In this document: positions 1-14,707 of the stretch, in pieces
How the letters are laid out: every line of letters begins with the position of its first letter
Numbering within the stretch: the first letter of the stretch is position 1
Assembly: GCA_002011745.1 (NCBI GenBank)
Contig: MTOU01000002.1
Span: forward strand, 1-45,541
Direction: 5' to 3'
Origin: Nitrospirae bacterium JdFR-85
Lineage (GTDB): Bacteria; Nitrospirota; Thermodesulfovibrionia; Thermodesulfovibrionales; JdFR-85
DNA length: 45,541 nucleotides
Made by a program: the position numbers and the translations under genes
Notes under the pieces: model-generated
Told to the model about the DNA's origin: nothing
The model's input: the letters and a program-made list of their open reading frames with translations, nothing else
Databases searched by the model: none

Positions 1-48
1 TATGCCTGTTCCAGAGAAGGAGGCATTGAGTTTGATATTTTTAGAGAA

Positions 49-366
49 ATGCAAGAGAAAGACTTAAAAATAGTGCAGAAATTTAAGGAACTTGTTTTAA
101 AGAAGGTTCCTGTAGAAGAAATACGGGTTTTTGGTTCAAGGGCACAGGGAGTTGCTACAGCAGAGTCAGATCTTGATGTTTTTATCATTGTTGAATCTCT
201 TGACCGTGAAATAGAAAAATACATAAGTGAGTGTACATGGGAGGCGGGATTTCCTGAGGATGTGGTGGTTGCCCCTGTTGTGATAAGCAGAGAAAAACTG
301 AACTCAGGAAATATTAAAGAATCAGTTTTTATTAAACGTGTGTATGAAGAAGGAATTATTGTATGA
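49..366 (+). CDS. MNT-type minimal nucleotidyltransferase (antitoxin-like)
   Basis: A 105-residue protein with the nucleotidyltransferase signature FGSRAQG followed by SDLDVFI near residues 28-45, which supplies the paired metal-binding aspartates. The small size and lack of other domains fit the MNT antitoxin family, which partners HEPN RNase toxins and in characterised pairs adds AMP to the toxin. No intact HEPN gene follows; only a short fragment overlaps the stop. The reading frame is open back to base 1, so the true start may lie upstream, and a HEPN partner could be just outside the window. The ATG at 49 has no clear Shine-Dalgarno. The family call is secure; the antitoxin role is inferred from family and from the toxin-antitoxin genes that follow. 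Confidence 0.8.
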   Translation: MQEKDLKIVQKFKELVLKKVPVEEIRVFGSRAQGVATAESDLDVFIIVESLDREIEKYISECTWEAGFPEDVVVAPVVISREKLNSGNIKESVFIKRVYEEGIIV

Positions 367-422
367 AAGAAGAATTTCGTGTCATACTCAAGGATATCTT
401 AGAAGAAGCTCTAAAAACCTAA
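363..422 (+). pseudogene. Short remnant ORF after the MNT gene
   Basis: An ATG overlapping the stop of the nucleotidyltransferase opens a 19-codon frame starting MKEEFRVILKDILEEALKT, then a stop. The same frame continues past the stop as LQKENILVVVEFQHG, which resembles the start of a second nucleotidyltransferase (helix, then a V-V-V-F-G-S-like strand) with the catalytic motif missing. This looks like a decayed or truncated partner gene rather than a functional small protein. The assignment rests on weak pattern similarity only. Confidence 0.3.
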
Positions 423-462
423 TTACAAAAAGAAAATATACTGGTTGTGGTAGAATTTCAAC

Positions 463-1407
463 ATGGACCCAAGAGAGCGATTTAATAAGGCACTTAAGGA
501 GTTTCTGAAAGACAAGCAGTTTCAGAGCCTTGAAGAGGCTCAGGCTGTTGTGAATGAGTTCACTTACAGGTACAATAACACCCCTTTAGATGATTTCTGC
601 GGCCTGACGCCAAATGAGATGCATAAGATGTTGTATTTTCCCTTTTTCTGTCCAGAGGTGGTCAGATTCAACTTTAAAGCCGCTCCACCTGTAAAGGCAC
701 CTTATGTGAACCTATTTCTATTGCTTATCTCAGGCATAAACGAGGCTGGTAGGCTAAAGACAACAGCTAAAGGCAATCTCCCCAGGGACTTCTGTAGAAG
801 GCTTGACGAACAGTACCACTCAGAAGAGGCCCGCAGGAATTTAATGAGAGATAAACACCCCATAATGAAAGAAACCGACTTCTGGGACCTGCACTTTGTA
901 AGATTAATTACTGAGAGGGCCGGTTATATTAGAAAGTATAAGAAACATTTTGTCCTTACAAAGAAGGGGCAAAGCATTGTTGCAAAGGGCTTTACTATAC
1001 AGGATTACTTTCGTCTATTTCAAATTTATACCATACAGTTCAACTGGGCATATACTGACAGTGGAGAGGAGATTCTCCACCTACAGAATTCCTTTCTTTT
1101 TACCCTCTATCTCCTGAAACTCTACGGTAGTGAATACAGACCCATGTCTTTTTATGCAAAGCAGTTTATAAAGGCATTTCCGGCGGTACTATCTGAGGTC
1201 TTAAATACTGCGTATTTTACACCAGAGGAGAAGATAGAAGTTCTTTATAACCATAGAGTTCTTATGAGATTTGCAATTGCCTGGGGTTTTGCTAAGACAA
1301 AGAAAAATGACCCTCACCTCAGTATGCATGAGAAGACCATTAAAAAGACCGCCTTTCTTGATGAGTTTGTGGAGTTTCATGTTCCTGCTGCAGAGTATAA
1401 ATCCTAA
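463..1407 (+). CDS. Hypothetical protein, 314 aa
   Basis: I do not recognise a named domain. The N-terminal 60 residues are helix-rich and contain a PLDDFCGLTPNEMHKMLYFPF-like segment; the middle is rich in aromatic residues and includes a basic stretch (residues 154-170, with KYKKHF). There is no signal peptide or membrane helix, so it is probably cytoplasmic. It lies between the nucleotidyltransferase remnant and the AbrB/PIN pair, on the same strand, in a region of small mobile toxin-antitoxin genes, so horizontal transfer is plausible. The ATG at 463 has no strong Shine-Dalgarno. Codon use looks like that of a real gene, but the function is unknown. Confidence 0.6.
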   Translation: MDPRERFNKALKEFLKDKQFQSLEEAQAVVNEFTYRYNNTPLDDFCGLTPNEMHKMLYFPFFCPEVVRFNFKAAPPVKAPYVNLFLLLISGINEAGRLKTTAKGNLPRDFCRRLDEQYHSEEARRNLMRDKHPIMKETDFWDLHFVRLITERAGYIRKYKKHFVLTKKGQSIVAKGFTIQDYFRLFQIYTIQFNWAYTDSGEEILHLQNSFLFTLYLLKLYGSEYRPMSFYAKQFIKAFPAVLSEVLNTAYFTPEEKIEVLYNHRVLMRFAIAWGFAKTKKNDPHLSMHEKTIKKTAFLDEFVEFHVPAAEYKS

Positions 1408-1453
1408 AGTTTTGATGCTTAGGTAGTATCTGCGTCTGCTCGGCTTGCTGATC

Positions 1454-1513
1454 TTGACATTGGCTTTATAGATTCCTTACTATTAAGTAAGGAAATCTCA
1501 ATAGAGTAAGGAG
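1454..1513 (+). promoter_or_regulatory. Promoter with overlapping palindromic operator for the AbrB/PIN pair
   Basis: A TTGACA hexamer (1454-1459) lies 18 nt before TACTAT (1478-1483). A perfect 9-bp inverted repeat, TTCCTTACT at 1473-1481 and AGTAAGGAA at 1486-1494, covers the -10 box. A further half-site (GTAAGGA) occurs at 1506-1512 and merges with the AAGGAG ribosome binding site of the antitoxin at 1508-1513. This layout fits autorepression by the AbrB-type antitoxin; that regulatory link is inferred. Confidence 0.6.
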
Positions 1514-1520
1514 TTATATA

Positions 1521-1769
1521 ATGCCAACATCGCAGATAACATCTAAAGGCCAGACCACTATTCCAAAAGAGATAAGAGAGTATCTTAATCTTAAATCAGG
1601 CGACAGGGTGGATTTTGTTATTGATGAGCATGGCAGGGTTGTTCTTAAACCAGCCACCCTTGATGTCAGCGAACTTGAAGGAATTCTTTACAGACCAAAC
1701 AGGAAGGCTGTATCTACTGAGGAAATGAAAAAAACCATTAAAGATAGATTCAGAAAGAAGAAGGGATAA
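1521..1769 (+). CDS. AbrB/MazE-family antitoxin
   Basis: An 82-residue protein whose first 45 residues form a swapped-hairpin AbrB DNA-binding domain: TSKGQTTIPKEIREYLNLKSGD followed by a strand ending VVLKPA. The C-terminal tail (residues 50-82) is charged and would wrap the partner toxin. It overlaps the PIN toxin start by one base (TAATG), the classic translationally coupled antitoxin-toxin layout. It has a good AAGGAG Shine-Dalgarno at 1508-1513. It is expected to neutralise the PIN RNase and, with it, repress the palindrome-bearing promoter upstream. Confidence 0.9.
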   Translation: MPTSQITSKGQTTIPKEIREYLNLKSGDRVDFVIDEHGRVVLKPATLDVSELEGILYRPNRKAVSTEEMKKTIKDRFRKKKG

Positions 1770-2167
1770 TGTTGAAAGGCATAGATACAAATGTTCTCGT
1801 TAGATACCTTGTAAAGGACGATAAAAAACAGGCAAAAAAGGCAACTGATTTTATCAGAGGAATCGCTACTTCGGGGGGACGATGTTTTATAAACCAAATT
1901 GTCCTCTGTGAACTGATCTGGGTGCTGGAGTCTGCCTATGGTTGTTCTAAAGATGAAATTGTTGATGTCTTAGAAAAGATATTAATCACAAAGCAGTTTG
2001 AAATACAGGACAAGGATACGGTCAGGCAGGCTTTACACGATTATGCCAGAGGAAAAGGGGACTTTGCTGACTATCTTATTGGTAGAATTAACCAGAACCA
2101 TGGTTGCAAAACAACTGTCACCTTTGACCGCGCACTTAAGAATACAGAAACCTTTGAGATTCTTTAA
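1769..2167 (+). CDS. PIN-domain toxin (VapC-like RNase)
   Basis: A 132-residue PIN-domain protein. The first acidic residue is in IDTNVLVRY (D6), the second in the NQIVLCELIWVLE segment (a Glu near residue 50), and a third cluster in KGDFADYLIG near residue 98, followed by TVTFDRALK. These match the metal-binding acids of PIN RNases, which in VapC toxins cleave tRNA or rRNA. Length is normal and the frame is intact, unlike the two vapC genes further along. It is coupled by a one-base overlap to the AbrB-type antitoxin. The RNA target cannot be told from sequence. Confidence 0.88.
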   Translation: MLKGIDTNVLVRYLVKDDKKQAKKATDFIRGIATSGGRCFINQIVLCELIWVLESAYGCSKDEIVDVLEKILITKQFEIQDKDTVRQALHDYARGKGDFADYLIGRINQNHGCKTTVTFDRALKNTETFEIL

Positions 2168-2253
2168 GCAGACCAAAAGTATCAACCAGGACAAAATATA
2201 GGAAAACCGATTCCAAATTTCTCTCCAGAGGAAACATCTCGCTTGAAAAATTA

Positions 2254-2313
2254 AATACAATTACATTACAATGTAATTGTATTCAAAAAACAATTACACT
2301 GGAATGTAAATTG
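2254..2313 (+). promoter_or_regulatory. Tandem palindromes upstream of and overlapping the ATPase start
   Basis: A perfect 13-bp inverted repeat (AATACAATTACAT at 2254-2266, ATGTAATTGTATT at 2271-2283) with a 4-nt centre is followed by a second, imperfect copy of the same motif (CAATTACA at 2291-2298 and TGTAAATTG at 2305-2313). The second copy includes the TTG start codon of the DUF4143 ATPase. Two spaced copies of one dyad suggest an operator for a dimeric regulator, possibly the ATPase itself. An mRNA hairpin limiting translation is the alternative. Confidence 0.6.
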
Positions 2314-3588
2314 GATATCTATTTTTTTAACCCGTGGTGGAAGGACGAAAGAGTACCGCCAGCGCTGTTGGGCAGGCACAGGAAGGTCTTTTTTGAGGTA
2401 AAGAAGTATTTAAACAAAAAGCAGATACTTCTTTTTACAGGTCTCAGAAGGGCTGGCAAGACCACCCTCATGTTTCAGATAATAGACGAACTCTTAAAGA
2501 AAAAGACCAATCCCCTGCACATCCTTTACTTCTCCTTTGATGAGCAGAGATTTGAGATTGAAGAAATTTTGAAGGTTTACGAGTCTCAGGTTCTGAAAAG
2601 GCCATGGTCTGCAGTTAAGACATTCCTCTTTTTTGATGAGGTTCATAAACTCAAGGACTGGGAAAACAGGATAAAAATTCTCTATGACATGAACCCTCAA
2701 GCAAAGATATTTCTTTCTGGCTCAGCCCATATTGGCATTTACAGGGGCACGAGGGAAAGCCTTGCAGGCAGGTTCTTTGAGTTTGTGGTTAAGCCTCTTG
2801 AGTTTGAAGAGTATTTACAATTCAAAAATGTAAAGATTGACCCAGAAAGGGAAGACCTTTTCAGAACAGAACTTATAACAAACTACGAGTCCTATCTAAG
2901 CACAGGGGGATTTATAGAGGCAATAGAATTTGAACAGAGCCCTGACATGCTAAGAAGGTATTTTAAAGAGAGTCTGATTGAAAGGGTTATCTTCAAGGAC
3001 ATTCCTGAGAGTTTTTCTGTCTCTCACTATGAACTTCTTTATAGAATTATGAACATTACAGCCTCTGCACCAGGACTGTATCTTGACTACCGCAGTCTCA
3101 GCAACGACCTTGGCTTTGATCACAGGACCATTGCCAATTATGTGCTCTATCTTCAGTATGCCCTGCTTGTGCAGAAACTGTACAACTACTCTCCCAATCT
3201 TTTAACAAGCGAAAAGAAACTTAAACGCCTTTACCTTTCTAACCCTGCCTTTACCTTTAACCTCGCCCCTGCTGTAGATAGAGCTAAATTGATAGAACAG
3301 TCTTTTGTTAATACGCTTGAAGGAAAATTTTTCTATCGCTCACCTCAGAAGGATGAAGTGGACATAGTGTACATAAAAGACCAGAAGGTGACCCCGGTAG
3401 AGATAAAAATCAAGAGTTCTTTAAGAAAAGACGACTTCAGGGGGATTGTAAATTTTATGAAAAGGCACAGGATTCAGAAGGCCCTTATGATTACGGCTCA
3501 GGATGAAGGTCTGTGGACAAAGGGGCGGCATCAGGTTCAGATGATTCCTTACTGGAAGTACTGGAGTATTAAGAGATATTTAACATAA
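2311..3588 (+). CDS. AAA-family ATPase with DUF4143 C-terminal domain
   Basis: A 425-residue protein. The N-terminal AAA_14 domain has a Walker A GLRRAGKT at residues 44-51 and a Walker B FLFFDE at about 105-110, followed by a sensor-like FLSGSA. The C-terminal DUF4143 part ends with a PD-(D/E)xK-like strand pattern, DEVDIVY then VEIKIKSS, near residues 363-387. Such ATPases are common in archaea and anaerobic bacteria, often with palindromes upstream, and their biological role is not established. The TTG start lies inside the second palindrome. It stands alone on its strand, between two toxin-antitoxin pairs, which fits a mobile or selfish gene. Confidence 0.88.
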   Translation: MDIYFFNPWWKDERVPPALLGRHRKVFFEVKKYLNKKQILLFTGLRRAGKTTLMFQIIDELLKKKTNPLHILYFSFDEQRFEIEEILKVYESQVLKRPWSAVKTFLFFDEVHKLKDWENRIKILYDMNPQAKIFLSGSAHIGIYRGTRESLAGRFFEFVVKPLEFEEYLQFKNVKIDPEREDLFRTELITNYESYLSTGGFIEAIEFEQSPDMLRRYFKESLIERVIFKDIPESFSVSHYELLYRIMNITASAPGLYLDYRSLSNDLGFDHRTIANYVLYLQYALLVQKLYNYSPNLLTSEKKLKRLYLSNPAFTFNLAPAVDRAKLIEQSFVNTLEGKFFYRSPQKDEVDIVYIKDQKVTPVEIKIKSSLRKDDFRGIVNFMKRHRIQKALMITAQDEGLWTKGRHQVQMIPYWKYWSIKRYLT

Positions 3589-3637
3589 ATCTTACACATT
3601 GACATATTGCAATCCTGGGATATATATTTATATATAC

Positions 3638-3883
3638 ATGAAGACAACCGTAGATATACCCGAAGGACTGTTTAAAGAAGTAAAAAAATTAGCCAAAAGG
3701 GACAACACCACGCTAAAGGCACTCATAGAAGAGGGGCTTCGTCGTGTTTTGGAAGAAAGGAAGCATCGTAAAAGTTTTCGTTTAAGGAAATTCACTTTTA
3801 AAGGCAAAGGGCTTCAAAGTCATCTTGCAGGTAAATCATGGGATAGCATAAGAGAAGTCATTTATGAGGGCAGAGGCGATTGA
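3638..3883 (+). CDS. VapB-type antitoxin (ribbon-helix-helix)
   Basis: An 81-residue protein starting MKTTVDIPEGLFKEVKKLA, a typical ribbon-helix-helix strand and first helix, followed by the second helix TTLKALIEEGLRRVLEE. The C-terminal half is basic and ends in a toxin-binding segment (HLAGKSWDSIREVIYEGRGD). I chose the ATG at 3638; an upstream in-frame ATG at 3599 would add 13 residues of low-complexity IYIYIY encoded by the AT-rich promoter. The last four bases overlap the TTG start of the PIN toxin. It should bind its own AT-rich promoter (about 3620-3636) and the toxin. Confidence 0.87.
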   Translation: MKTTVDIPEGLFKEVKKLAKRDNTTLKALIEEGLRRVLEERKHRKSFRLRKFTFKGKGLQSHLAGKSWDSIREVIYEGRGD

Positions 3884-4310
3884 TTGCAGTTGATACAAAT
3901 ATTCTCATTTATGCCCATCGTGAAGACTCTCCCTGGCACAAAGCAGCCTATAGGTGTATAGTTCAACTATCAGAAGGTGTCCTGTCATGGGCAATACCCT
4001 GGCCATGCATACACGAATTCCTTGCAATAGTAACTCATCCCAATATTTATGATCCACCAACACCACTAAGAATAGCCATTGAGCAGGTAGAGGCATGGAT
4101 GGAATCTCCCACTCTTGTTTTATTGAGTGAAACCAATGAACATTGGAAAACGCTTAAAAATTTTCTCACAAAAGGCAAAATACTTGGTGCACAGGTTTAC
4201 GATGCAAGAGTTGCTGCCCTTTGTAAACAGCACGGCATTACCGAGTTATGGACAGTAGATCGGGCTTCAGCCCATACAAAGGAATAAAGGTCAAAAATCC
4301 TTTAATATAG
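3880..4310 (+). pseudogene. VapC-type PIN toxin with a C-terminal frameshift
   Basis: A TTG start overlaps the vapB stop. The protein begins IAVDTNILIYAHRED (first PIN aspartate), keeps the WPCIHEFLAIVTHP segment and reaches VYDARVAALCKQHG and LWTVDR. VapC proteins usually continue as DR-F-S and end in a G-L/I-K-V-x-N-P-L-I motif. In the frame as written the end is RASAHTKE and a stop at 4285-4287. In the +1 frame the same bases give GFSPYKGIKVKNPLI and a stop at 4308-4310, the expected VapC tail. One extra G in the GGG run at 4262-4264 would restore the gene. It is therefore either a recent frameshift mutant or a sequencing indel; the catalytic acids are retained. Confidence 0.85.
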
Positions 4311-4358
4311 ATGCTCCTGTCTCAGCAGGAGAGACTGTCATGTATCAGGTTGAAAACA

Positions 4359-4868
4359 ATGGGCAGTAACCCTTCTCGGGCTATAACAGGTACTCTTGTG
4401 TGGTACTACTACATCTGCCACCGTGAGGTATGGCTGATGAGCAGACACTTAGAGCCTTCTCAGGAGAATCCATTTATTGAAATTGGCCGTCTCATATCAG
4501 AGGAAAGTTACAAAAGGGACAGAAAAGAGATAAGAATTGACAATTTGGTAATTGACATTCTTCGTAGGGATGACGAACAGGTTGTAATTGGAGAGGTAAA
4601 GAAGAGTTCACGATTTGAAAAAAGCGCCAGGATGCAACTTGCCTTTTATCTCAGCAGAATTAAAGAAATGGGGGTCAAGGCAAGAGGAGAACTCCTGTTT
4701 CCAAAGGAGAAAAAGAGGATTGAGGTCAGCCTGAGTCCTGAGTTAGAGGAGGAACTGAAAAACGCAGAGGTAAAGATACAAAAAATCATCAATAGCGAAC
4801 ATCCTCCAGAACCAAAGAAGAATAGATTCTGTTCAAAGTGTGGATACAACGAGTTCTGCTGGGCATGA
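4359..4868 (+). CDS. cas4: CRISPR-associated exonuclease Cas4
   Basis: A 169-residue Cas4 (RecB-family nuclease, PF01930) that trims prespacers and helps select PAM during spacer acquisition. Visible features: GTLVWYYYICHREVWLMSR at the N-terminus with Cys20; IGRLISEESYKR; the catalytic core DNLVID (D61) and GEVKKS (E79, K81); MQLAFYL (Q93); and a C-terminal CSKCGYNEFC (C158, C161, C167) that with Cys20 would hold a 4Fe-4S cluster. I chose the ATG at 4359; the frame is open to 4311 but upstream residues do not match the family, and there is no clear ribosome binding site. It is separated from cas1 by an opposite-strand vapBC pair. Confidence 0.92.
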   Translation: MGSNPSRAITGTLVWYYYICHREVWLMSRHLEPSQENPFIEIGRLISEESYKRDRKEIRIDNLVIDILRRDDEQVVIGEVKKSSRFEKSARMQLAFYLSRIKEMGVKARGELLFPKEKKRIEVSLSPELEEELKNAEVKIQKIINSEHPPEPKKNRFCSKCGYNEFCWA

Positions 4869-4870
4869 GG

Positions 4871-5277
4871 CTACCTTCTGTAGATTTTCAGTGTAGTATG
4901 TTCTGCAATCAAATCATAGTCTTTATCTCTATGAAGAAGATATACATCGTATTCCATCGCCACTGAGGCTATCAGGGCATCTATGGTAGACACAGTAATG
5001 CCTTTACTTCTCAACCTGAATGCCAGCTCAGATGTCTTATGCCAGAGTGTGTCTGTAATCCTTAGCCAGTGGAGACTCTCAAAGGCCATTATTAATTTCT
5101 TTTTCCCTTTTCGGCTTCTGCAGTCCTGAATCAGTTCAATAAGCACCAGCCCTATAATAGTCACCCTGTTTTCGTCAAGAAGAGTTGAAATGGTTTTTTG
5201 AGTTCAGTATGCCCTCTTCTTGCAAAAAGCAGGACCCAGGCGCTCGTGTCTATTAAAACTGCAAGGGTTGAAAACAA
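4871..5277 (-). pseudogene. VapC-type PIN toxin with an internal frameshift
   Basis: Read from a TTG at 5277, the frame gives FSTLAVLIDTSAWVLLFARRGHTELKK, a standard VapC beginning with the first PIN aspartate, but then runs to a stop. The rest of the gene lies in another frame: ENRVTIIGLVLIELIQ through STIDALIASVAMEYDVYLLHRDKDYDLIA, carrying the remaining PIN acids. Adding one A to the six-A run just after the GHTELKK codons joins both parts as KKTISTLLDENRVTII and gives about 135 residues, the normal length. It is a disrupted toxin or a sequencing indel. It sits 10 bases downstream of its vapB partner and ends 3 bases from the cas4 stop, so the two genes converge. Confidence 0.87.
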
Positions 5278-5287
5278 AGTTATTCTG

Positions 5288-5524
5288 TCATCTTCTGGCT
5301 GCAGTTGTTTTGTGCTCTTTCTGTCTTCTTTTTCTCATGGACTTCAGCTCTTTTAGGGACATATCCAGCATACCACTACCAGCCCATTCTTTAATCTTCT
5401 GATGTTGTCTTGACTTTATAAGTTCTTCAAGTGCAAGTTTAATTGTCTCTTTTTTAGTTGAGGTCCCTGCAAGAACCATTGCCTTTTTGATTAGTTCTTC
5501 ATCCAAGTCAATCGCTGTTTTCAT
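5288..5524 (-). CDS. VapB-type antitoxin
   Basis: A 78-residue antitoxin starting MKTAIDLDEELIKKAMVLAG, then TSTKKETIKLALEELIK, the usual VapB DNA-binding fold, and a toxin-binding tail with GSGMLDMSLKELKSMRKRR. I chose the ATG at 5524; the longer frame to 5608 adds residues translated from AT-rich promoter DNA shared with cas1. It lies on the minus strand between cas4 and cas1 and is followed by a frameshifted vapC. Its promoter region is divergent with that of cas1, so VapB binding there could affect cas1-cas2 transcription; that is inference. Confidence 0.87.
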   Translation of the reverse strand: MKTAIDLDEELIKKAMVLAGTSTKKETIKLALEELIKSRQHQKIKEWAGSGMLDMSLKELKSMRKRRQKEHKTTAARR

Positions 5525-5595
5525 ATATTTCCTGGCAAGAACTTTATAAAAGTTATATATACAAAAACACCATATTTTTATATATAATTTAGAGT
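5525..5595. promoter_or_regulatory. Divergent vapB / cas1 promoter region
   Basis: Very AT-rich DNA between the vapB start (minus) and cas1 start (plus). On the plus strand TATAAT at 5583-5588 is a candidate -10 for cas1, only 8 bases before the ATG, so transcripts would be nearly leaderless or start further upstream. Two TATATATA-type tracts (about 5552-5560 and 5577-5586) resemble the tract before the other vapB at 3620-3636, which could be a shared operator or just low complexity. Confidence 0.35.
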
Positions 5596-6588
5596 ATGCG
5601 TAAGACAATATACATATTCTCTGACGGAGAGTTAAAAAGAAAAGAAAACACCCTTTACTTTGAGGCAGAAAAAGGACGTAAGTACATTCCTGTAGAGAAC
5701 ACTTCTGAATTGATGATATTTGGTGAAGTTACAGTAAACAAAAGATTTCTGGAATTTCTAACACAATCAGAAATTATCATGCATTTTTTCAATCGCTATG
5801 GTTACTATGTAGGATCATTTTATCCAAGAGAACATCTAAATTCAGGCTACATGGTATTAAAGCAAGCAGAACATTATCTTGATTTTAATAAACGAATTGA
5901 TCTCGCAAAACGATTTGTTAATGGAGCGATATCAAATATAATAAAGGTGTTGAGTTATTACTTTAACAGAGGAAAATCCCTTGATTACTATATTGATAAG
6001 ATTCACTCTATCACAGAGGCTCTTAACCAATGTAATGCAACAGAAGAACTAATGGCCATTGAGGGAAATGTTAGAGAACAGTATTATAAGGCATTTGATA
6101 TAATTCTTGATAATAAACATTTTGTTTTTCAGGAGAGAACCAAACGTCCACCGAAAAATCGTTTAAATGCAATGATAAGTTTTGGAAACTCTATACTCTA
6201 CACTGTGGTACTCAGTGAAGTCTATCAAACCCATCTTGATCCAAGAATAGGATTCCTTCATGCAACTAACTTTAGAAGATTTACATTGAATCTTGATATT
6301 GCAGAAATCTTCAAACCTATTATAGTTGATCGTATAATATTTACACTTATAAATAAAGGCATAATAAAGGCAAAACATTTTGAAGAAAGACTTGGAGGAA
6401 TTGTGTTAAATGAGAAAGGCAAAGAGCTTTTTGTTAGAGAGTTTGATGAGCGGCTGAAGACCACGATTAAACACCGAGGTCTTGGAAGAAATGTTTCTTA
6501 TAGAAGATTGATCAGATTGGAACTCTATAAATTAGAGAAGCATCTTATTGGAGAGGAAAAGTATAAGCCATTTGTAGCGAGGTGGTAG
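5596..6588 (+). CDS. cas1: CRISPR integrase Cas1 (type I-B-like)
   Basis: A 330-residue Cas1, the metal-dependent integrase that with Cas2 inserts new spacers at the leader end of the array. The N-terminal beta domain (about 1-80) starts KTIYIFSDGELKRKENTLYF. The helical catalytic domain contains the expected acids: E156 in AIEGNVREQYY, H222 in GFLHATNFRRF, and D234/E237 in LDIAEIFKP. Length and motifs best match Cas1 of type I-B systems. Cas2 follows after 22 bases, and the array starts about 430 bases downstream of cas1. There is no fused reverse transcriptase. All catalytic residues are present, so the adaptation module looks functional. Confidence 0.96.
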   Translation: MRKTIYIFSDGELKRKENTLYFEAEKGRKYIPVENTSELMIFGEVTVNKRFLEFLTQSEIIMHFFNRYGYYVGSFYPREHLNSGYMVLKQAEHYLDFNKRIDLAKRFVNGAISNIIKVLSYYFNRGKSLDYYIDKIHSITEALNQCNATEELMAIEGNVREQYYKAFDIILDNKHFVFQERTKRPPKNRLNAMISFGNSILYTVVLSEVYQTHLDPRIGFLHATNFRRFTLNLDIAEIFKPIIVDRIIFTLINKGIIKAKHFEERLGGIVLNEKGKELFVREFDERLKTTIKHRGLGRNVSYRRLIRLELYKLEKHLIGEEKYKPFVARW

Positions 6589-6610
6589 GTTAATTTAAAG
6601 GATTTTTAGT

Positions 6611-6874
6611 ATGTATGTAATTTTAGTATACGATATAAAAGAAGAAAGAGTTTCAAAGATTCTTAAAACTTGCAGGAAATATCTCAATTGGGTTCAAAAC
6701 TCTGTATTTGAAGGAGATATAACAGAAGCAAAGCTGGAAAAACTAAAAACAGAATTAAGAAAGATCATAAATGAAATGGAAGACTCAGTTATAATCTATA
6801 AAATGAGAACAACACGTTACAATGAACGTGAAATTATAGGTATAGAGAAAGGAGGAGAGGAACTTATAATATAA
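6611..6874 (+). CDS. cas2: CRISPR adaptation protein Cas2
   Basis: An 87-residue Cas2 with a ferredoxin-like fold. It begins MYVILVYDIKEERV, with the conserved aspartate (D8) after the first strand, and continues RKYLNWVQNSVFEGDITEAKLEKL, the typical segment before the dimer interface. It bridges two Cas1 dimers and measures the spacer during integration. The size is normal (85-100). It is in the cas1 operon, and the leader of the array starts right after its stop. Confidence 0.95.
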   Translation: MYVILVYDIKEERVSKILKTCRKYLNWVQNSVFEGDITEAKLEKLKTELRKIINEMEDSVIIYKMRTTRYNEREIIGIEKGGEELII

Positions 6875-7019
6875 GTGTCGTCGATATGAAATAGTGCAAA
6901 AATTCTCGGAATAAGACGCCTTCATTTTTGTTGACATTTCAAGAAGTTATTAATTATAATTTGTCAAATTAAAGAATGTTCTTTGAAATAAAAATATTGG
7001 ATTTACTATATAAAAATTG
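6875..7019 (+). promoter_or_regulatory. CRISPR leader with near-consensus promoter
   Basis: A 145-base AT-rich leader between cas2 and the first repeat. It carries TTGACA at 6931-6936 and TATAAT at 6955-6960 with 18-nt spacing, both hexamers a perfect match to the housekeeping sigma-factor consensus, directed into the array. Transcription would start about 50 bases before repeat 1. A strong promoter suits transcription of a nearly 7.7-kb array. The leader-adjacent bases (about 7000-7019) are where an acquisition motif would be expected, but I cannot define one. Confidence 0.8.
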
Positions 7020-10000
7020 GTTTGAAGAGTACCTATAAGGAATTGAAACAAGCGATTCTCCGTGCTATGGACGATGCAGTAGAGAAGGTTTGAAGAGTAC
7101 CTATAAGGAATTGAAACAAAAAATTCTTTTCCCCACCTTTTGAGAAGTCTTACCTGTTTGAAGAGTACCTATAAGGAATTGAAACTTTCCAACGACTGGC
7201 ATTAATTCCTCAATGCGTCGTTGGTTTGAAGAGTACCTATAAGGAATTGAAACCCATAGTTACACCTCCTTAAGGATTACTTTTATTTCAGTTTGAAGAG
7301 TACCTATAAGGAATTGAAACAGACGATTTTCTCTCCTTTCTTTTGTGCTTCTTCCAATGTTTGAAGAGTACCTATAAGGAATTGAAACATATCCCTTACA
7401 CGGCAGACAAACCGTGAAGGGTTGTTGTTTGAAGAGTACCTATAAGGAATTGAAACATAAACCCGTCAAAGACGGGTTATAAAACCTTGAAGAGTTTGAA
7501 GAGTACCTATAAGGAATTGAAACCAGAAATAGTAAAGGAACGAGTTGAAAGAGCTTGGGTTTGAAGAGTACCTATAAGGAATTGAAACAATCCCGCCGTC
7601 CAGTTTTCTGGACATAGGACAGGTATGTTTGAAGAGTACCTATAAGGAATTGAAACCTATGATAGACACTCCAAACAAACCTATACAGGTCTGGTTTGAA
7701 GAGTACCTATAAGGAATTGAAACTCAATTTTAAGAGGAGGGCTTATGATTTATGTCTTGGTTTGAAGAGTACCTATAAGGAATTGAAACTCTTCAAAAAC
7801 ATGTGCCAGAGGTCAAAAAAATGTTCAGAAAGTTTGAAGAGTACCTATAAGGAATTGAAACTATCGTTTGGAAACCTAACGAAATACTCAATTCCTGTGT
7901 TTGAAGAGTACCTATAAGGAATTGAAACCAAAATGGTATCCTATATCATGCCAACCTCTTTGTGTTTGAAGAGTACCTATAAGGAATTGAAACATATAAT
8001 TAAAATTAATAATATTAAAAAACTAATTGGGTTTGAAGAGTACCTATAAGGAATTGAAACTGGGATAGGGATGGAGATCCGAAAAGGACCAAGGGTGGTT
8101 TGAAGAGTACCTATAAGGAATTGAAACTGTCCGTTGTTACCAAGTCTTTTATGTAGTCATAATGTTTGAAGAGTACCTATAAGGAATTGAAACACTGTTT
8201 CTTCTATCTCGCCTTCAACTTCAATTTTGCGTTTGAAGAGTACCTATAAGGAATTGAAACTCGCAATCTCCTCTACGCACCTTCCTCGTAGAGGAGGGTT
8301 TGAAGAGTACCTATAAGGAATTGAAACATATTCTCCATGATTCGTGTGGCAGCCTGAACTTGGGTTTGAAGAGTACCTATAAGGAATTGAAACGCCAATT
8401 CCTTCTTGAGGTTTCTTCTGTAGCCGTTGAGTTTGAAGAGTACCTATAAGGAATTGAAACCTTCTATAAAAGCTACTATGGGTACCCAGTGTATGCTGGT
8501 TTGAAGAGTACCTATAAGGAATTGAAACGCCAATCGGTATAGCACCTTGCACAGGTAACTATACCGGTTTGAAGAGTACCTATAAGGAATTGAAACTCAG
8601 ATACATAAAAATAAGAACAAAGATGGAAGAAGGCAGGTTTGAAGAGTACCTATAAGGAATTGAAACCTCCAGTTCCCCCATACGAGGGTATCCCCCGCAT
8701 CCTGGTTTGAAGAGTACCTATAAGGAATTGAAACTGGAGCTTCCTGAGTCTCTTCAGAAGCTCCATTTCTGTTTGAAGAGTACCTATAAGGAATTGAAAC
8801 ACAACATTAGTTGTCTCTGTTTTGTGAGATTCCCACAAGTTTGAAGAGTACCTATAAGGAATTGAAACCTCTGCCTTCTTACACATTTCAATATACTCTT
8901 GCGAGTTTGAAGAGTACCTATAAGGAATTGAAACCCATGTTGCATACCAGTACAATTTGAGCCATCCTGTCAGTTTGAAGAGTACCTATAAGGAATTGAA
9001 ACGTGTGCGGGTTTATCTTTATACAGGGAACCCGCAGACGTTTGAAGAGTACCTATAAGGAATTGAAACGTCTCTCCAGTCTTCACAATCCCCTACTGAT
9101 CAGGGGGTTTGAAGAGTACCTATAAGGAATTGAAACGGGTTAGCGATGGCTGTTAGTATTGATTTTAGTGTTTGTTTGAAGAGTACCTATAAGGAATTGA
9201 AACCAACCCTGCAGGTACTGAGAGCTGTATGAGGAGTAGGGGTTTGAAGAGTACCTATAAGGAATTGAAACCGGTTTTTATGTCTTTCATTGTAATTTCT
9301 TGTATGGTTTGAAGAGTACCTATAAGGAATTGAAACCTATATCAACGGCTACAGATGATACTTCAAGGAGAAATGTTTGAAGAGTACCTATAAGGAATTG
9401 AAACGGGGTAAGTAACCGCAAGGTGAAAGCCAGTCCCTCAGTTTGAAGAGTACCTATAAGGAATTGAAACCTCCACCTGTCGTGAGACAGTAGGAGACGG
9501 TAGGGGGTTTGAAGAGTACCTATAAGGAATTGAAACCCCTGTCGCCTGGTACAGGAACAAATGGAGTGGACCAGTTTGAAGAGTACCTATAAGGAATTGA
9601 AACACATGTTAAGTCAACGCACAAAGGTTAACATGTTAGTTTGAAGAGTACCTATAAGGAATTGAAACTGTTGCCAGGGAAACGAGGGGAAACCCCGACC
9701 CACATTGTTTGAAGAGTACCTATAAGGAATTGAAACTGTCCATCATGTTCAATAAGATACATCTCAAACTGACCCAGTTTGAAGAGTACCTATAAGGAAT
9801 TGAAACTCAGACACCGGTAGCGTCAGCATGCTGCACAAGTTGCCCGTTTGAAGAGTACCTATAAGGAATTGAAACCCTTGGCAAGGGTAGAGGAATTCCT
9901 GCAGAGCTGGGATGGGTTTGAAGAGTACCTATAAGGAATTGAAACTTTCTATCGCCTCTCTTCTTTCCATAGTCCACCTCCACGTTTGAAGAGTACCTAT

Positions 10001-13000
10001 AAGGAATTGAAACTCAGTCCTGGGATTACGGCACTGGGGATTGGCCAGGGTTTGAAGAGTACCTATAAGGAATTGAAACTACAGGGAACCCGCAGACCCT
10101 GTATTAATCTATAAGTTTGAAGAGTACCTATAAGGAATTGAAACCTATTTCTTCTACCACTCTCCATTTTAGGACAGGAAGTTTGAAGAGTACCTATAAG
10201 GAATTGAAACACAACCCTTCTTGAGGGAGACAGAAAGGACGATAGTGCGTTTGAAGAGTACCTATAAGGAATTGAAACACTATTTCAACAGGGAATACAG
10301 TCTGTCCTTCTTCAAATGTTTGAAGAGTACCTATAAGGAATTGAAACTGAGATGGCAGATACATGGATATAACCACAAGAAAGGTTTGAAGAGTACCTAT
10401 AAGGAATTGAAACTGATCAAGGAGGTGTAAGATGAAAGTAATAAGATATGTTTGAAGAGTACCTATAAGGAATTGAAACCCAATAACCAATAGTGTCAAA
10501 TGCTGGTATTTGAAGTTTGAAGAGTACCTATAAGGAATTGAAACCTGTAATAAATCTCTCGCTCTATCTTCTGCAAGAGCGTTTGAAGAGTACCTATAAG
10601 GAATTGAAACATGGTAAAGTAAAAGTACCTAAAGTTGCTGCACTTAGTTTGAAGAGTACCTATAAGGAATTGAAACCAACCCACGCATAAGCATCTGCTG
10701 CGTCTTTCATACATAGTTTGAAGAGTACCTATAAGGAATTGAAACTGGTAATCAAGACGAGCATAGTTCAAAGGAAATCGTGTTTGAAGAGTACCTATAA
10801 GGAATTGAAACAATGGAAACAAGAAAATCTTGGAGGTACCCAATGCCAGTTTGAAGAGTACCTATAAGGAATTGAAACACTGCTCGCCAGTAGTTTTTCT
10901 TCCTGAACTGTTTTCCTGTTTGAAGAGTACCTATAAGGAATTGAAACTCTGGATTTTCAATCATATCAATCGCCTTATCCAACACTGGTTTGAAGAGTAC
11001 CTATAAGGAATTGAAACTTAAACAAATGATATCGTACCCACTCATGTGCAAAAGTTTGAAGAGTACCTATAAGGAATTGAAACCGGGGCATTCAAACACT
11101 GCCCAGAGGGCCGCTGGGTAGTTTGAAGAGTACCTATAAGGAATTGAAACAGGCAATTAGGGGCTCAAGGCAGCCCCAGACGGACTGGTTTGAAGAGTAC
11201 CTATAAGGAATTGAAACGATTGCCAAGGAATTTCGACAACGAGGCTTTTATTTTCGTTTGAAGAGTACCTATAAGGAATTGAAACCTTGTCGCCCTCATC
11301 GGTGCAATGATGGGGGCGGCGGTTTGAAGAGTACCTATAAGGAATTGAAACAGAGAGGCAAAAAACAGATAAAGGAGTGAATAATATGCCAGTTTGAAGA
11401 GTACCTATAAGGAATTGAAACTAAGGAGGAGGGTGTCATGTGTAGCCCTAATACGGAGGGTTTGAAGAGTACCTATAAGGAATTGAAACCTATGATAACA
11501 GCGTCTACCAATTCCGCCACCGTCAGCGTTTGAAGAGTACCTATAAGGAATTGAAACCAACCTGGAATATCTCATCTTTGTAATTATCAAAGTCAGGGTT
11601 TGAAGAGTACCTATAAGGAATTGAAACTATATCCATCAAATAAAGGAGATGAAAAATCAGAATGTTTGAAGAGTACCTATAAGGAATTGAAACTTTTATC
11701 AAGAAGAACTTAGAGGAAAGAGAGTCAGGGTTTGAAGAGTACCTATAAGGAATTGAAACCATCTTTGGAAGCGAGAAAGGACATAATGAGTACAGGGTTT
11801 GAAGAGTACCTATAAGGAATTGAAACATCGTAAACGCAGCCTCATCTCCAGTATCTGCATCGTTTGAAGAGTACCTATAAGGAATTGAAACCCCTCACTC
11901 CCATACACTCAAAATTTTCCTTAATGATGGTTTGAAGAGTACCTATAAGGAATTGAAACACTATAAGGTGACTTACATTATCTTTTGCACACAAAGTTTG
12001 AAGAGTACCTATAAGGAATTGAAACCTTGGACGATCTGACTGATTTTCAGCAGATCATTACGTTTGAAGAGTACCTATAAGGAATTGAAACGCCGATTGT
12101 CTTGATGTCTTAGCCTACCTTTATGAGCTTGTTTGAAGAGTACCTATAAGGAATTGAAACACTTCAGCAATAATCGTTTCATTACCAGCCGCTCCTATGT
12201 TTGAAGAGTACCTATAAGGAATTGAAACGTGCTGGAGTAAGACTACTCCAGCAGAGAAACCGCCGGTTTGAAGAGTACCTATAAGGAATTGAAACTTGAT
12301 AATGAAGGCAACATTATGAGGGCTCTATTTTTGTTTGAAGAGTACCTATAAGGAATTGAAACCTTTTAGTGTCATAATAACACCTCCAAAAAACTTAATG
12401 TTTGAAGAGTACCTATAAGGAATTGAAACTCTGGTTCCTTTTCTTATCCTTGTAGATCTTATTTCTTTGTTTGAAGAGTACCTATAAGGAATTGAAACTA
12501 TTATTTAAATTTAAATTATTATTATTTAAATGTTTGAAGAGTACCTATAAGGAATTGAAACCAATTTCTTCTTTCCTGCCATCAGGGCGTGCAAAAAGGT
12601 TTGAAGAGTACCTATAAGGAATTGAAACTCCTTCATCCTCACAGAGATGACAGAAATCGTCATCCTCGTTTGAAGAGTACCTATAAGGAATTGAAACACC
12701 CTCCAGTGGATAAAAACTATCCACACAGAGGGCATCGTTTGAAGAGTACCTATAAGGAATTGAAACAGAGTCTGCGAGGAATGCCCCCTCGATGAACAGA
12801 TGAGGGTTTGAAGAGTACCTATAAGGAATTGAAACTGCAATCAATACCTCCTCAAAAACCGCCTTCTGAGTTTGAAGAGTACCTATAAGGAATTGAAACA
12901 CCTCTATGGTGGGGAGGATTCTCCAGGATACCAGGTTTGAAGAGTACCTATAAGGAATTGAAACGTAGAATGATAGGCGGATGGATTAAAAAAATTAAGG

Positions 13001-14707
13001 GTTTGAAGAGTACCTATAAGGAATTGAAACAGGCCATGCCTTATTTTATTTTTTTTACCCTCAGATAGGTTTGAAGAGTACCTATAAGGAATTGAAACAA
13101 ATGCAGAGGGAAAGGAAAAAATACAGTGAGGTGCGTTTGAAGAGTACCTATAAGGAATTGAAACATTATACAAGGCATAAAGGATGTAGAAAACAGAACG
13201 TTTGAAGAGTACCTATAAGGAATTGAAACCCGTTTTCGTCAGTATAGAGATACTGTTCAACTTCGGTTTGAAGAGTACCTATAAGGAATTGAAACTCCAC
13301 ACCTCCCTCTCTTTTCCAAGCTCTAATCCACGCCAGTTTGAAGAGTACCTATAAGGAATTGAAACTGTAGCGAAGGGCCAAGTCAAAGGTACAGGTCATT
13401 CCTGTTTGAAGAGTACCTATAAGGAATTGAAACGTAAATATGAATATGGACAAGAATACAAATACTACTGCGTTTGAAGAGTACCTATAAGGAATTGAAA
13501 CAGGGCATCCACAACTTTCGTGTGGGCCTTCTGGAGGTTTGAAGAGTACCTATAAGGAATTGAAACTTGGATTTGCAGATGGTTCCTGTGGGGCCGATAT
13601 CTGTTTGAAGAGTACCTATAAGGAATTGAAACGGTGGATACTCGAAAGGGAATGGGGAGCTCCAGCGGGTTTGAAGAGTACCTATAAGGAATTGAAACGT
13701 TATTCTCAAACAAGAAGGGCTTTCTGAAAAAGCTGTTTGAAGAGTACCTATAAGGAATTGAAACGGGGAGAGAAAGGAGGTGTAGTGATGGTAAGTAAAG
13801 GTTTGAAGAGTACCTATAAGGAATTGAAACCAAGGGTAGAGGATATGAACTCCTGTGCCTCACTGTATGTTTGAAGAGTACCTATAAGGAATTGAAACCC
13901 GAAGATTTTCTTCTTCTTATAGATGCTCTTACTATGTTTGAAGAGTACCTATAAGGAATTGAAACTCACGCCTCCAAAGGCAGGTCTGTCATCTTTTCTT
14001 ATGTTTGAAGAGTACCTATAAGGAATTGAAACTTTCTATTCCTTCTACATCAGTAGAGGGGATAGAAAAGTTTGAAGAGTACCTATAAGGAATTGAAACA
14101 AGGTCTTTCTGCCTTTCGTACAGCATCCTTCACCTCCAGTTTGAAGAGTACCTATAAGGAATTGAAACAAACAAAAGAAGGGGATACACTCGAACTTATA
14201 TTGCGATTGTTTGAAGAGTACCTATAAGGAATTGAAACTGTTGTCTGAGACACCTGGCTTTCCCCACTGTGCTTCAGGGTTTGAAGAGTACCTATAAGGA
14301 ATTGAAACAGGTTCTTCTGTTTGATTTTCCTTTTCTAACTCTTCGCGTTTGAAGAGTACCTATAAGGAATTGAAACTAAAGATTGACAAATTCTTTTGCA
14401 AGCCATTTCCATTCGTTTGAAGAGTACCTATAAGGAATTGAAACTCAGAACATTGAGATTTCTCTGACACCCTCGCTGTAGTTTGAAGAGTACCTATAAG
14501 GAATTGAAACTTTGTTAACGATATGACAGTAGACAGAGCTGACAGGTTTGAAGAGTACCTATAAGGAATTGAAACAAGTCCCCACGAATAGGGTGCGGGT
14601 AGAAATGCACCCGTTTGAAGAGTACCTATAAGGAATTGAAACACTTCAGCAAAAGAGCCTACATCCTGCCCGCGCAGGTTTGAAGAGTACCTATAAGGAA
14701 TTGAAAA
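7020..14707 (+). CRISPR. CRISPR array, 115 repeats and 114 spacers
   Basis: I counted 115 copies of a 30-nt repeat that begins GTTTGAAGAGTACC and ends AAGGAATTGAAAC, separated by 114 spacers of 33-42 nt (mean period about 67). Every repeat I read is identical except the last (14678-14707), whose final base is A. The 3' ATTGAAAC is the usual 8-nt crRNA handle of Cas6-processed type I-B and type III systems. The leader and cas1-cas2 are on the left and the degenerate repeat on the right, so new spacers should be added at 7020 and the oldest lie near 14.6 kb. Predicted proteins across this stretch are translations of the repeat and are not genes. Notable spacers: 30 and 46 overlap; 67 resembles tRNA-Leu; many have inverted repeats. 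Confidence 0.99.
14678..14707 (+). repeat. Terminal CRISPR repeat with changed 3' base
   Basis: The leader-distal repeat matches the consensus for 29 bases, but its last base is A rather than C, and it runs into AAGGAGGGG instead of a spacer. A degenerate last repeat is normal at the old end of an array and fixes the array orientation. Confidence 0.9.

Follow-up and report, generated by a model that had tools for sequence, protein, structure and literature searches.

Why should the spacers of one CRISPR array be so rich in hairpins? The array lies in a 45,541-nucleotide stretch, hereafter the window, of contig MTOU01000002.1 from Nitrospirae bacterium JdFR-85, and a preliminary description of it had noticed many perfect inverted repeats among the spacers and proposed that spacer choice may favour hairpins. 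The question is whether the excess is real and, if so, whether it stems from the acquisition machinery, from the targeted elements or from chance.

Regular, near-identical repeats alternate with unique spacers of 33 to 42 nt; 114 of the 115 copies of the repeat, GTTTGAAGAGTACCTATAAGGAATTGAAAC, are identical, and the last copy has a different final base. The array is located directly downstream of cas4, cas1 and cas2 (Table 1), whose scores against TIGR00372, TIGR03641 and TIGR01573 are all above the cut-offs, and Cas1b, Cas2 and Cas4 adjoin its leader end. To judge from these matches, this is a type I-B CRISPR array of the ordinary kind, together with its adaptation module. The same cas4-cas1-cas2-array order, the same repeat family (CRISPR-DR2 in Rfam) and a similar spacer length of 35 to 40 nt are found in the type I-B modules of Thermodesulfovibrio and relatives, which have Cas4-Cas1b-Cas2 and ATTGAAAC-ended repeats. 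The window array differs from these in its hairpin spacers (10.5%, versus 4.6% across arrays that share its repeat family) and in having no visible neighbouring interference genes: none is present beside the array in positions 1 to 7019, where the window begins at a contig end and upstream genes may be missing, and the genome has a single Cas3_HD match, on contig C2. To the left of the array are also encoded an MNT-like nucleotidyltransferase (49-366), a transposase fragment (463-1407), two PIN-domain proteins (1769-2167 and 3880-4287) and an AAA_14/DUF4143 ATPase (2311-3588).

Table 1. CRISPR locus and hairpin spacers of the window (C numbers designate spacers of the second array of the genome)
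Feature	Position	Strand	Remarks
cas4	4311..4868	+	TIGR00372, 103 bits; Pfam PF01930, E 7.7e-58
cas1, type I-B (Cas1b)	5596..6588	+	TIGR03641, 488 bits (cut-off 304)
cas2	6611..6874	+	TIGR01573, 58.6 bits
Putative leader	6875..7019	+	Position between cas2 and repeat 1; degenerate terminal repeat at the opposite array end
CRISPR array	7020..14707	+	115 repeats, 114 spacers; repeat with a match to CRISPR-DR2 (Rfam)
Spacer 3	7186..7223	+	Arms 7 bp, plus inner 5-bp stem
Spacer 7	7457..7493	+	Arms 8 bp; 16-nt hairpin in common with C90
Spacer 19	8261..8297	+	Arms 10 bp
Spacer 23	8529..8566	+	Arms 8 bp
Spacer 26	8735..8770	+	Arms 9 bp
Spacer 30	9003..9039	+	Arms 8 bp; 18-nt target overlap with spacer 46
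Spacer 39	9604..9638	+	Arms 9 bp
Spacer 46	10080..10114	+	Arms 7 bp, interleaved with the spacer 30 stem
Spacer 64	11286..11321	+	Long stem if a G.U pair is allowed; 27-nt overlap with C58, opposite strand
Spacer 78	12229..12265	+	Arms 10 bp; target neighbour of spacer 64 via C58
Spacer 82	12499..12531	+	Arms 8 bp; ATTTAAAT, AT-only, low complexity
Spacer 85	12698..12736	+	Arms 7 bp, inside a 12-bp interrupted stem
Spacer 105	14033..14069	+	Arms 7 bp; 16-bp stem if two G.U pairs are allowed

Each spacer was scored by the longest inverted repeat whose arms pair perfectly around a loop of 3 nt or more. Arms of at least 7 bp were found in 12 of the 114 spacers (3, 7, 19, 23, 26, 30, 39, 46, 78, 82, 85 and 105). 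The 11 such spacers named beforehand are all correct, with arms of 10 bp rather than 9 in spacer 78, and only spacer 82 had been missed; to the five spacers listed with 6-bp arms (9, 62, 75, 84 and 113), also correct, should be added 52, 79 and 93.

Among 400 dinucleotide shuffles of the spacers, none reached 12 spacers with arms of at least 7 bp, the expectation being 2.18 (SD 1.4), so that the initial chance estimate of 1 to 2 was fair for shuffled sequence. The same holds for longer arms, with 8 spacers versus 0.62 expected at 8 bp or more and 4 versus 0.18 at 9 bp or more, counts that no shuffle equalled. Folding with RNAfold agrees with the arm counts, giving mean z-scores of -0.73 and -0.71 on the two strands (SE 0.09). 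Shuffled sequence nevertheless makes the effect look too large, since inverted repeats are more frequent in viral DNA and in natural spacers. Scaled to 114 windows of 37 nt, arms of at least 7 bp occur 1.1 times in the non-array part of the window, 2.05 times in the organism's own genome, and 4.0, 1.9 and 3.3 times in three phages whose GC contents are 42, 46 and 33%, respectively. Two AT-rich phages (24 to 27% GC) reach 7.4 to 7.7, shuffled values there being already 5.5 to 6.0.

A more demanding reference is provided by other CRISPR arrays, and we collected 106 of them, with 2509 unique spacers, beside the cas1 genes of relatives. Ninety of these spacers have arms of at least 7 bp, that is, 3.6% or 4.1 per 114, versus 1.8 per 114 in their own shuffles; this rate is near that of natural phage DNA of similar GC. 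Shuffled spacers are therefore too weak a composition control, ordinary arrays being already about 2-fold above them. The window array, at 10.5% versus 3.6% overall, exceeds almost all others and is also above viral DNA of similar GC: it is approximately 2.6- to 3-fold above other arrays and 5-fold above shuffles. The two comparisons, with shuffled spacers and with related arrays, had been proposed in the preliminary description, and both bear out the excess. No description of such a spacer hairpin excess was found in the open-access literature (subscription papers were outside the search).

When between-array variation is allowed for in a beta-binomial model across 77 arrays, 12 of 114 has P = 0.020, which puts the window array in the upper tail of the distribution among arrays. 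It might thus represent an upper-tail fluctuation, hairpin content varying from array to array and the second array of the genome, described below, being correlated with it through shared targets. The array was picked because it looked unusual, and one other array, L128, stands at 9/92, as would suit such a fluctuation; the P value of the second array (below) has also been obtained under the same model. However, high counts are found in both large arrays of the genome, and with arms of at least 9 bp the window array still exceeds other arrays (4, versus 0.9 per 114). We consider this explanation unlikely.

The genome's second array belongs to a type III-A (Csm) locus of contig C13, with a different repeat and 102 spacers. 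Genes for a Csx1-like protein, Cas6, Cas1, a second Cas1-like protein, Cas2, Cas10, Csm2 and Csm4 were recognized there; cas4 was not found among the tested genes of this locus. The locus thus differs from that of the window by its own repeat, its Cas10/Csm effector and its tandem Cas1-like gene, and the two Cas1 proteins and CRISPR types differ as well. Yet it has in common with the window array both a hairpin excess (13 of 102 spacers with arms of at least 7 bp; beta-binomial P = 0.006) and overlapping targets. Eight spacer pairs between the two arrays share 13-mers, versus 0.33 expected from shuffles, among them W64/C58, which overlap by 27 nt on opposite strands (W numbers designate spacers of the window array). 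Both arrays therefore sampled common targets, and their excesses are not independent. The second Cas1-like gene of C13 (L078:13365-14213) is diverged, directly follows cas1 and matches Cas1 models weakly; such tandem pairs recur across the phylum (genomes G008, G012, G014, G053, G056, G080, G089, G105, G106, G115 and others).

Arrays of relatives with like machinery do not show the excess: arms of at least 7 bp were counted in 31 of 669 spacers for the same I-B repeat family and in 7 of 140 for III-A-like repeats. Since the excess is present in two unlike systems of one cell and absent from relatives with like machinery, we favour a target-borne cause. The viruses or plasmids behind the array would carry stretches rich in hairpins, from which spacers were taken repeatedly, and the III-A array of the same cell, drawing on the same targets, would have gained the same excess. 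We give this explanation a probability of about 0.5. On this view, a few related viruses would carry the hairpins at high density as conserved elements, either structured RNA or regulatory sites. The remaining excess of about three-fold thus seems to be imported from the targets, and spacer structure may inform on viruses that have not been seen.

Several observations made on overlapping spacers bear on this explanation. In the two arrays together, arms of at least 7 bp are found in 10 of the 37 spacers that overlap another, versus 15 of 179 non-overlapping ones (odds ratio (OR) 4.0, p = 0.003). Joined, W30 and W46 give 54 nt in which stems of 8 and 7 bp interleave; C20 and C22 behave likewise, and W64, C58 and W78 together cover 68 nt, with two stems next to each other. 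In C33, C63, C64 and C52, one hairpin keeps its stem while the loop or the flanks vary, and so does that of W7 and C90; stems kept in this way would be expected of conserved elements in related viruses. From the overlap rate, the effective target would be about 7 kb for structured spacers and 98 kb for unstructured ones, an estimate that relies on few pairs and is confounded by conservation.

Such sites may be acquisition hot spots, or else hairpin sites may be multi-copy or conserved in the targets. Under the first possibility, self-complementary single-stranded fragments would fold back or self-anneal, survive nucleases and be captured by Cas1-Cas2, or extruded hairpins would be cut to give free ends. 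An acquisition preference of this kind is suggested by the enrichment of resampled sites here and, independently, in other genomes, where 11 of 97 overlapping spacers are hairpins versus 79 of 2412 (OR 3.8, p = 5e-4); this test counts spacers and leans on few loci, 3 of 17 near-identical clusters having arms of at least 7 bp, which weakens it as an argument for the preference. The pooled resampling signal across genomes is no more than suggestive. It is in line with this that the same hairpin protospacers were re-acquired with shifts of 1 to 5 nt or a point change (C44/C61 and C69/C81 in the second array; three times in L141, and in L128 and L164). Near-perfect whole-spacer hairpins, some of them re-acquired slightly shifted, are seen in L128 (genome G056, spacers 8/13 and 53) and L141 (genome G030, spacers 34/45/50). 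Moreover, the stems of the window array almost fill the spacer: 67% span at least 29 nt, a share that is 24 to 29% in other arrays and in phage DNA (p = 0.01 versus phage, in a post hoc test).

Against an acquisition preference, the arrays of relatives with like machinery are unenriched, arrays overall are near natural phage DNA, and two unlike machineries would need the same preference in one cell alone. In addition, stem position within the spacer has no clear bias (Kolmogorov-Smirnov p = 0.10 and 0.22), and its mild trend is partly due to truncation. We therefore regard the preference as rather unlikely. Of the initial proposal that spacer choice favours hairpins, the hairpin richness of repeatedly sampled sites, here and in other genomes, is retained, but the machinery preference is not; in particular, fold-back substrates of Cas4/Cas1-Cas2 fit poorly with the low counts of the same-repeat-family relatives and with the excess in a III-A locus where cas4 was not detected among the tested genes.

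The target-borne explanation has difficulties of its own. Random sampling would need a hairpin density in the targets several times that of ordinary phages, and it would disfavour spacer-filling stems. The resampled hairpin sites of other genomes also fit a general acquisition hot spot. According to this last proposal, hairpin protospacers would be captured and recaptured more often by several Cas1-Cas2 types, and repeated spacers would mark invader hairpins; we find it doubtful as a general rule. Hairpin-rich resampled sites in independent genomes bear on how protospacers are chosen.

If the excess is target-borne, which elements do the hairpins represent? Terminators had been suggested as a source, and intrinsic transcription terminators of the target viruses were considered. 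The joined spacers W27 and C59 do end with a stem followed by TTTATTT, and in other arrays a T-run is present in 13 of 80 flanks, versus 7.7% of control stems. Of the testable flanks in the two arrays of this genome, however, 1 of 8 and 0 of 12 have a T-run after the stem, which is not above control stems (about 10%), and several stems are interrupted or interleaved. That most hairpins of the two arrays are canonical terminators is not supported, and we hold a terminator origin to be very improbable.

The targets were also searched for directly. BLAST against 50,697 phage records and 72,556 plasmids gave no convincing protospacer, only weak matches or matches to CRISPR repeats, and 17 genomes of the family returned only the second array's own spacers. 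Six exact-pattern scans of IMG/VR were empty, as was a scan for peptides translated from overlapping spacers, and a terminase search (PF03354) for prophages across the family genomes found none. When the window array and part of the second were scanned with Rfam for known structured RNAs such as GOLLD or ROOL, only the CRISPR repeats reached the gathering score, but the spacers are too short for large models.

The RNA-like folds of the spacers would suit an RNA origin, as in RT-Cas1 systems, which acquire spacers from RNA. Unlike those systems, the genome of the window has no match to the reverse transcriptase model RVT_1 (PF00078); acquisition directly from RNA is therefore unlikely, and RNA-derived spacers were rejected. 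G.U pairs were likewise dropped as a sign of RNA function, the strand evidence being mixed. Shine-Dalgarno-plus-start motifs were seen in 7 + 7 spacers (one count per strand), a frequency not clearly higher than in windows of the organism's own genome, and a bias of spacers towards intergenic regions or gene starts is not established. In the C13 spacers (L078/L079), these motifs are found on the antisense strand only (7 versus 0), which would be expected of crRNAs complementary to transcripts; shuffling by itself gives a like skew (4.1 versus 1.7). Finally, the reverse complement of spacer 67 (11490-11527) resembles, by eye, the D-arm side of a leucine tRNA (GGCGGAATTGGTAGACGC), which suggests that the targeted element may carry a tRNA gene.
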